From contig PFOR01000007.1 in NCBI GenBank assembly GCA_002792635.1, forward strand, positions 1 through 45,138: a stretch of 45,138 nt of DNA, given 5' to 3'. Both the position numbers and the translations under genes were made by a program. The notes beneath the pieces were generated by a model. The model was not told the DNA's origin and did no database searches. It saw only the letters and a list, made by a program, of their open reading frames with translations. Source of the DNA: Candidatus Pacearchaeota archaeon CG_4_10_14_0_2_um_filter_35_33. GTDB taxonomy: Archaea > Nanobdellota > Nanobdellia > Pacearchaeales > GW2011-AR1. Below are positions 1,318-40,467 of the stretch, in pieces (positions within the stretch are counted from its first letter, which is position 1; every line of letters begins with the position of its first letter).

Positions 1318-1371
1318 TTATTTCAAGGTTGCTTGAGCATCCAAAAGTTCAAATACATAAAAACTTTTTGA
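1318..1371 (-). repeat. Two-hairpin repeat family, copy A (short form, inverted)
   Basis: Perfect reverse complement of 2764-2817 (54 bp). Confidence 0.9.
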
Positions 1372-2763: not shown

Positions 2764-2817
2764 TCAAAAAGTTTTTATGTATTTGAACTTTTGGATGCTC
2801 AAGCAACCTTGAAATAA
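2764..2817 (+). repeat. Two-hairpin repeat family, copy B (short form)
   Basis: TCAAAAAGTTTTTATGTATTTGAACTTTTGGATGCTCAAGCAACCTTGAAATAA, perfect inverted match to copy A. Confidence 0.9.
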
Positions 2818-5875: not shown

Positions 5876-5920
5876 GGACATTAAAAAATAAGAAATGATT
5901 AATTTATCTGGAGGTGCAGA

Positions 5921-6183
5921 ATGGACAAGATAAAAAAGTTCTTGCGTGTTTGAACTTTTGGATGCTCAAGGTTGCATTCATCCATACAGTAAAGTGCATG
6001 GTTTTCTGCATCGGCAACCTTGACATAAAAATTTGCGAAGGATATTCGAACGCAGAAGCAACAAAATGCTGCAAAAAATACAATGGGTGTTACTATGATG
6101 AACGCATAAGATTACATTATGCAGAAGGACATATGAAAAAACATTTGAAAAAGTTAAGAATGTATAATTCTAATCTACCTTAA
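5921..6183 (+). pseudogene. Small Cys-rich protein gene interrupted by repeat copy C; restored product MDKIKICEGYSNAEATKCCKKYNGCYYDERIRLHYAEGHMKKHLKKLRMYNSNLP
   Basis: GGAGGTG Shine-Dalgarno 4 nt before ATG; frame is restored by removal of 95 bp between ATAAAAA direct repeats. Confidence 0.6.
5930..6031 (+). repeat. Two-hairpin repeat family, copy C (medium form) with 7-bp ATAAAAA flanking repeats
   Basis: Stem 1 AAAAGTTC/GAACTTTT; stem 2 TCAAGGTTGC/GCAACCTTGA. Confidence 0.85.
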
Positions 6184-17144: not shown

Positions 17145-17715
17145 CTCCTTGCCCTAAAGGGCAAGGCTTCTAAGCGTGAGGCCTATCCGGATTCCTTACG
17201 TACTCTTTTGCCTGCTCAACCTGTATAAATCCAAGGCTTGAAGCAAACTTTCCTGAACTCCATAAATTCCCTCTTGATACAATAAACCAATTAATTCTTT
17301 CGGTTTTTTCGTGTTAATTTACCATTGGGAGAACAATTAAGCCACTGAAGAATTTAATCGGTCTGCTATATCTTGGCCTTACTTTCGGATTATCCCTGAA
17401 GAACAATCTTGCAGACACTCCTTTCAATATTTGCAATGCATAAGCAGGACTTGTGCTTAGGCTTATCCCAACGATGCAATGCACATGCTCTGGCTGGACA
17501 TTCAGCTCCAGAATTTTTATTTCAGGCATAGCTCCAGCTCTTCTGATGCAGGCACCTATTAAAGCTCTCTGCTCTTCCTTGCGGAACATCTTATACCTGT
17601 ATTTCGTGCACCACTCAAAGTGCCACACCGATATTTAGAATCTATGACCCCTCCTTTCATATTTCCCTATTAATGCTTGCTAATCAATACTTGTGTTTCC
17701 ATTTTTATCTCCTCC
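17145..17715 (-). mobile_element. Decayed IS200-type element (Y1 transposase tnpA) with right-end hairpin and left-end leader
   Basis: FEWCTKYRYKMFRKEEQ...NVQPEHVHCIVGIS...LQILKGVSARLFF...RGNLWSSGKFASSLGFIQVEQAKEYVRNPDRPHA; hairpin CCTTGCCCTAAAGGGCAAGG. Confidence 0.8.
17272..17361. mobile_element. 90-bp insertion inside tnpA with imperfect ~14-bp stem and AGA flanking repeats
   Basis: Joining RPRYS to RGNLWSSGKF restores a canonical TnpA C-terminus. Confidence 0.55.
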
Positions 17716-17750
17716 GCAAAATTTAAAAAGTAGTTTAGGAGAATAAGAAG

Positions 17751-21057: not shown

Positions 21058-21141
21058 CTCGACAAAATATATAAAGAACGGAGATTTATATCGAATATAA
21101 GATTGGGAGTTCAACTAACCGATTGAACGCGGTTGAGGCGT
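21058..21141 (+). repeat. ~84-bp direct repeat copy 1 (TATA-containing leader)
   Basis: 76/84 identical by eye to 26108-26191, no indels. Confidence 0.9.
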
Positions 21142-26107: not shown

Positions 26108-26191
26108 CTCGACAAAATATATAAAGAACTGGGATTTGTATCGAATATAAGATAGAGAGTTTGACTAACCGATTGAACGCGGTTGGGGCGT
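26108..26191 (+). repeat. ~84-bp direct repeat copy 2
   Basis: See copy 1. Confidence 0.9.
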
Positions 26192-34443: not shown

Positions 34444-34850
34444 GCAGTAGAATAAAACATCAAGATAAGAAAAATGCCATTAGTATTATAAATGCTTCCG
34501 AAAGACAAATGCAGTTCACACTTAAGCAAGATGTAACTGATGAATCTGCCTTTAACATTATACGGAACATTTACGAGTGCTTCCGTATGCTTGGTGATGC
34601 GGTTCTAGTATCTAAAGGATTTGCCTCAATAGATCATGTAGAACAGATAAAAGAACTTGAAAAGATACCTGCCAAAACAGAGAGGCCGATAAGTCTTGTA
34701 AACAGCCTGAGAAAATTAAGACATAACATCAATTACTATGGATATATTGCAAAAAAACTGAAGCTGAAGATGCCATTTCTATCGCACACGCCTGTTTCAA
34801 TCCATTGCTAAAGGAAATCAAAAAGTTCTTGTGTTTTACTCCACACTAAA
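34440..34850 (+). pseudogene. HEPN-domain protein, frameshifted near C-terminus and truncated by repeat copy D
   Basis: SLRKLRHNINYYGYIAKK then -1 frame TEAEDAISIAHACFNPLLKEIKK; A7 run at 34751-34757. Confidence 0.7.
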
Positions 34851-34947
34851 GTGTGGGGTTTGTTTGAACTTTTGGATGCTCAAGGTTGCATTCATTCATG
34901 CACTAAAGTAACTGGTTTTCTGCACCGGCAACCTTGACATAAAAAAA
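34819..34947 (+). repeat. Two-hairpin repeat family, copy D (long form with extra CCACAC-TAAA-GTGTGG hairpin)
   Basis: Shares GAACTTTTGGATGCTCAAGGTTGCATTCAT...GGTTTTCTGCAYCGGCAACCTTGACATAAAAA with copy C. Confidence 0.9.
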
Positions 34948-35237
34948 GGACTTGAAAAAGAGAAAGCAAGAGAAATCCTTGGTGGAAAATCAGAAGCAGG
35001 ATTTCCAATTCTATATGGGAATCCAAAGCAGCGATTAGAACAACTTAAAGGCTACGGAGGAAAAAGAATAGAAGAATTAAGAAATAAGTTAAAGGAAGAA
35101 GTAGCAAAACAAAAAAATTCTAAACATTGATCTCATCTCGACAATCCTTAAAAATCCTAATCGCTCAAAAAAATTTGTACATAACTTGTATAATAAAATT
35201 CCGGAGATAATATAAACAATAGTTTCTTAGAACATCA

Positions 35238-40204: not shown

Positions 40205-40304
40205 CAAAGTACCACATCGATATTCAGAATCTATGGTCTCTCCTTTCATATTTCCCTATTAATGCTCGCTAATCAGTACTTGTGTTTCCATTTTTATCTC
40301 TTCC
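40205..40304 (-). mobile_element. Solo left-end remnant of the IS200 element
   Basis: Same-length ~100-bp match to 17616-17715, including METQVLIS(K/E)H mini-ORF. Confidence 0.75.
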
Positions 40305-40467
40305 CAAAGATTTATTTAGAACTAGAGAGTTATCACTACACCTTTGAATGCAATGAGCTAACATCCAACACACATCATAATCATTTCAGAAATAATTGAA
40401 TTCATCAACTTGAAAGCCAAGGATTTCTTGCGAAAAAGTTTAAATAGCCCAAAAAATCCAATGAAAT

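Follow-up and report, generated by a model that had tools for sequence, protein, structure and literature searches.

The palindrome-associated transposable elements (PATEs) of Haloquadratum walsbyi form homogeneous high-copy families of non-coding length that have no terminal inverted repeats, carry palindromes near both ends, leave no target duplication and also occur as core-only short forms of 52 bp (PMC3119063). REPs and REPINs are small non-coding palindromic repeats, and a Y1 transposase (TnpA-REP) is believed to mobilize them via folded single strands (PMC3116915, PMC8266576). Autonomous IS200/IS605 elements encode the Y1 transposase TnpA themselves. Canonical MITEs are miniature, non-autonomous and multi-copy, with terminal inverted repeats and usually a target duplication (PMC10969869), while the archaeal cbf5 pre-mRNA intron interrupts one conserved protein gene, from whose transcript it is spliced with restoration of the reading frame (PMC2738675).

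In the 45,138-nt stretch of DNA analyzed here (the window; its genome is designated G000), a small gene is interrupted by a repeat, copy C, that shares every PATE feature listed above, including a short form (51 bp), but differs in sequence and host lineage, in its target AT^AA and in its adjacent hairpins with one shared GGATG between them. By this comparison it is, in form, a PATE-like (IS200/IS605-type) miniature element. Unlike autonomous IS200/IS605 elements it is non-coding, with Y1_Tnp found elsewhere in G000 (truncated) and in genome G024. It differs from REPs and REPINs in having no GTAG/CGTC tag and in having copies inside genes, and a dedicated single-copy TnpA-REP was not identified. 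Both the terminal inverted repeats and the target duplication of canonical MITEs are absent, and in contrast to the cbf5 intron the element is multi-copy, occurs in both orientations and has decayed host genes. No earlier description of it was found in the literature searched. We conclude that copy C is very probably a miniature mobile element, non-autonomous and lacking a transposase, whose insertion at AT^AA interrupted a small zinc-finger gene and led to its inactivation. We count as demonstrated the family with its exact ends, the empty sites, insertion in either orientation without duplication, two covarying hairpins and host-gene decay. The ends, target, two-hairpin fold and gene inactivation described here belong to a miniature mobile element found in Pacearchaeota with small genomes (DPANN), and one proposed new class of archaeal intervening sequence is eliminated.

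Coordinates of the interrupted genes and element copies in the window
Feature	Position	Strand	Remarks
Small B-box-like zinc-finger gene, interrupted, now a pseudogene	5921..6183	+	55 codons without the insert
Copy C, 95 nt; P1 without inner hairpin, P2 with inner hairpin	5932..6026	+	own-genome family, empty sites
Copy B, short 51-nt form, intergenic	2765..2815	+	
Copy A, short 51-nt form, intergenic	1320..1370	-	identical to B, inverted to B
Copy D, full 122-nt form, both inner hairpins	34819..34940	+	
ORF rejoined without copy D (LLKE-IKKGLEKEKAREIL)	34727..35130	+	

The original prediction had described a gene with the strong SD GGAGGTG upstream of its ATG, whose frame is restored by removing 95 nt, and its coordinates, sequence and arithmetic all proved correct on re-reading. 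Excision of copy C places ATGGACAAGAT directly before AAAAATTTGCG, and the 55-codon frame thus opened encodes MDKIKICEGYSNAEATKCCKKYNGCYYDERIRLHYAEGHMKKHLKKLRMYNSNLP; the joined reading includes IKICEGYSNAEATK. Among 275 genomes searched, four gave strong scores, all with uninterrupted homologs of the joined protein (G001, 75%; G051, 69%; G120, 61%; G206, 53%), so that the joined gene is not a product of chance. G001 belongs to the same genus and G051 to the same family as the window genome; both loci are syntenic, the SD GGAGGTGCAG, the start and the flanking sequence are conserved in both, and both carry an empty site, AAGATAAAAAcTTG or AAGATAAAAATTTG (also given as AAGATAAAAA and GATAAAAA), that is, GAT^AAAAA as predicted. 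The restored gene and the expected empty site in relatives are thereby borne out; both the gene and the insertion were genuine.

The homologs show weak B-box matches, and the four cysteines conserved in all of them are replaced by Y, Y, Y and R in the window's protein. Thus, of the Cys-rich 55-aa protein originally proposed, the joined frame holds, but judging from these residues the product is no longer a good zinc protein. On its own branch the copy C gene has 11 nonsynonymous changes to 5 synonymous ones, as could occur without any constraint (p = 0.07 relative to the neutral share), while the G001 branch, with 3 and 7, respectively, is strongly constrained (p = 1e-4); compared directly, the two branches differ only at p = 0.1. 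Single frameshifts could be assembly errors in such metagenome-derived genomes; changes of four conserved cysteines hardly could. The insertion, which had been called recent, is therefore not fresh, because its gene has already decayed.

The element was found at about 33 places in G000 (776,861 bases, 27 contigs), and relatives were found in 13 of 92 related genomes searched, several of them Pacearchaeota genomes. The richest carrier, G024, has at least 35 copies that are 95-100% identical to the query, and 17 of the 32 examined are mutually identical, which indicates a recent spread there. Copy C is flanked by AT (5930-5931) and AA (6027-6028). Full copies start with C(A)AAAAAGTTCTT after AT and finish with CTTGA(C/A)AT before AA, spanning AT^C(AAAAAG...) to (...GACAT)^; the left end ATC-AAAAAG is present in nearly all copies, copy C having A for C. 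These AT^AA boundaries were fixed by the syntenic empty sites and by Pfam matches that span the junction in rejoined proteins, and 60 filled sites in two genomes gave the target consensus A(A/T)AT^AA(A/T)AA; in more distant subfamilies AT is kept on the left, and AA on the right not always. The 7-bp ATAAAAA noted earlier at 5930-5936 and 6025-6031 is present, but as a target-site duplication it was rejected, because it is made up of the element's own conserved end (the left AAAAA) and a local A-run; only AT, itself ambiguous, is common to both junctions, and comparison of the filled sites with the empty sites of G001 and G051 revealed no duplication. The idea of a MITE-like insertion into a gene was right in substance, as the empty sites attest, apart from this duplication. 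Nor were terminal inverted repeats found between the left CAAAAAG and the right end (reverse complement, ATGTCAAGG). The copies have no coding capacity; most are 51-132 nt and the longest found is 173 nt, and in G000 they come in modular lengths of 51, 59, 76, 78, 95, 100, 120 and 122 nt, set by the presence or absence of an inner hairpin in each of two arms.

A few copies are unusual in structure or placement. Copies A and B lie 1.4 kb apart as a 54-bp perfect inverted pair; in one copy (L011, G000 C6:11130-11228) the inner segment of arm 2 runs opposite to that of the other copies, as though it had flipped between its GGTTGC/GCAACC arms; and a 59-nt hybrid (L034, G000 C14:26740 down to ~26680) consists of the two palindromes fused at their CACTNNAGTG centres, within an otherwise open endonuclease/exonuclease/phosphatase-like gene. 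In G024, copies repeatedly lie ~110-130 bases from contig ends (C9, C15, C21, C22, C25, C39 and C43), perhaps marking assembly breaks where some cells have a filled and others an empty site.

Comparison of 21 copies from different genomes and subfamilies revealed two covarying hairpins, P1 and P2, with pairing kept at most variable positions, often by opposite pair types; the outer stem P1, for instance, pairs as AAAAGTTC/GAACTTTT, AAAAGTCC/GGACTTTT or AAAAAACTC/GAGTTTTTT. In the wider covariation set the finder required near-pairing, which inflates the percentage paired, so that pair-type changes count as evidence and this percentage does not. The DNA fold of copy C has z = -2.5. Between P1 and P2 lies the conserved GGATG, whose GAT is able to base-pair with ATC at the left end and whose ATG with CAT at the right.

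Rejoined frames across the junction were found for about 13 sense and about 15 antisense copies, removal restoring the frame in both orientations. Sense hosts in G000 include two NUDIX genes, an endonuclease/exonuclease/phosphatase-like gene, the copy C and D genes and others, and those in G024 genes for a TrpD-type phosphoribosyltransferase (C35:21535) and a GNAT protein (C44:67340) and a further gene with two insertions; antisense hosts include a low-molecular-weight phosphatase, HEPN, a 2'-5' RNA ligase-like gene, a YafQ-like toxin, PIN, a cupredoxin-like gene and others. These assignments are based on open frames and, for some, Pfam, several hosts having no domain; matches across the rejoined junction reached 8e-78 (TrpD-type glycosyltransferase), 8e-14 (GNAT), 3e-14 (NUDIX) and 1e-6 (HEPN), and an uninterrupted homolog of the endonuclease-like gene is present in G029. 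The gene hit twice (L095, G024 C18:32831 and 33043) holds two sense copies 212 nt apart, and its frame is continuous once both are removed. Across G000 and G024, about 24 of 65 copies lie in genes, compared with 85% of the window's ATAA/TTAT sites in coding sequence, an approximately twofold depletion (binomial ~1e-18, on hand-made gene counts), which indicates that insertions in genes are purged. Besides the insert, an in-frame stop interrupts both the NUDIX gene L007 and the phosphatase gene L024, and by eye L008 appears frameshifted elsewhere, as does the copy D gene, whose apparent upstream part lies in another frame and whose rejoined ORF gave no Pfam match. The endonuclease-like gene and the G024 host genes are otherwise open with no visible decay, as expected if their insertions are young.

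These genic copies bear on the suggestion that the element is excised like an intron. Were the archaeal splicing endonuclease, or some activity not yet known, to remove the 95 nt from the mRNA and so give the 55-aa protein, both the stable fold and the exact frame restoration at copy C and more than 20 other in-gene sites would be accounted for. Removal leaves the frame intact, however, because insertion neither added nor lost bases, so that perfect frame restoration is the outcome of any duplication-free insertion and is not evidence of splicing. Roughly half of the copies in genes lie antisense, and the transcript would there carry their complement; genic insertions are depleted; and hosts decay, by loss of the four zinc ligands in the copy C gene and by stops or frameshifts in several others; on these three grounds the intron reading fails. 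Further, flanks beyond AT^AA vary freely, and no exon-exon helix of a bulge-helix-bulge (BHB) motif is therefore conserved; the two element ends belong to separate hairpins, unlike a BHB; and a search of Rfam gave no family at threshold at the element, other matches being at chance level. RNA splicing is thus extremely improbable, and a new archaeal intervening sequence, whether removed at the RNA or the DNA level, is not supported by these sequences, host-gene decay arguing against a functional spliced product. Barely credible is a reading of the element as exonic, for which an open 89-aa ORF with a GTG start (5914-6183) runs through the insert: the repeat-encoded residues, whose presence in homologs had been named as a ground for refuting the interruption, are missing from all four, which start at the conserved ATG. 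Translational bypass, as with mobile byp elements and T4 gene 60, would have ribosomes take off from AUC/AUA before the element and land on AUA at its end, and matches the finding that 12 of 13 sense in-gene copies in G000 and G024 lie in the ATA codon phase (one-sided p = 0.002, post hoc), the thirteenth (L103, GNAT) having CAT on both sides, hence CAU for take-off as well as for landing. Genic ATAA sites divide ~51:49 between phases, evenly also after weighting for flank preference, and antisense insertions show no skew. Against bypass, antisense copies exist, sense-interrupted genes decay (copy C, NUDIX L007 and L008), the skew is post hoc and from small numbers, and different tRNAs normally decode AUC and AUA; we consider it very unlikely. 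It is likewise hardly to be expected that ATA-phase sense copies are partly tolerated through bypass of the folded element (AUC/AUA, CAU/CAU), the dead genes then reflecting insufficient tolerance, which, if true, would make this a mobile bypass element in an archaeon. Alternatively, insertion in the ATA phase stops translation within about ten codons, which may do less damage than the long hydrophobic read-through that the other phase gives. Reading through the element by a -1 frameshift at A AAA AAG, which would restore the frame, is compatible with lengths of 95 and 122 nt but not with 51, 76, 78, 100, 115 or 120 nt, and was on that account rejected as a general rule.

A mobile element that inactivates its host genes is the reading that we follow, and its movement would be of the IS200/IS605 type. 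In this model, the single strand would fold into the two hairpins, the GGATG between them would pair with both cut sites (GAT-ATC on the left, ATG-CAT on the right) and guide a Y1 (HUH) transposase supplied in trans, which would cut after AT at each element end; rejoining 3' of an AT at a new site would then leave no duplication. The likeliest engine, we infer, is such a Y1 TnpA acting on the folded single strand. An intact Y1 transposase ORF of 146 aa (C44:19797) occurs in G024, where the burst took place, whereas G040 and G028 carry more divergent copies and gave no Y1 match. PATEs are linked to an IS605-type parent; here the flanks of the Y1 loci in G024 and G000 lack these element ends, and searches through Y1_Tnp flanks, the left-end pattern (G024 and G000), TnpB and IS110 found no autonomous parent. 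An odd left end in G024 (C34) was rejected as parent, being a short remnant beside an unrelated ORF. Other chemistries might instead move the same element, for example those of IS110-type bridge-RNA recombinases, Helitron-like HUH enzymes or tyrosine recombinases. The AT that flanks it on either side might then serve as a 2-bp core or as a Helitron-like A^T site, and two structured arms and an element with no known autonomous partner would suit this. We regard such a mechanism as possible but rather unlikely, since near-terminal palindromes, lack of duplication and core-deleted forms follow the PATE/IS605 pattern (PMC3119063), and the four genomes with copies searched for IS110 (G000, G024, G040 and G028) gave no PF01548 match.

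The window itself contains a truncated Y1 transposase remnant (17353-17625, minus strand), the start region of which overlaps a 110-nt direct repeat (17616-17725 and 40205-40314). Beside this tnpA remnant lies a hairpin with a CTAAAG loop (~17147-17172), which has a weak likeness to the element palindromes. A separate 84-nt direct repeat, 90% identical between its copies, occurs at 21058-21141 and 26108-26191.
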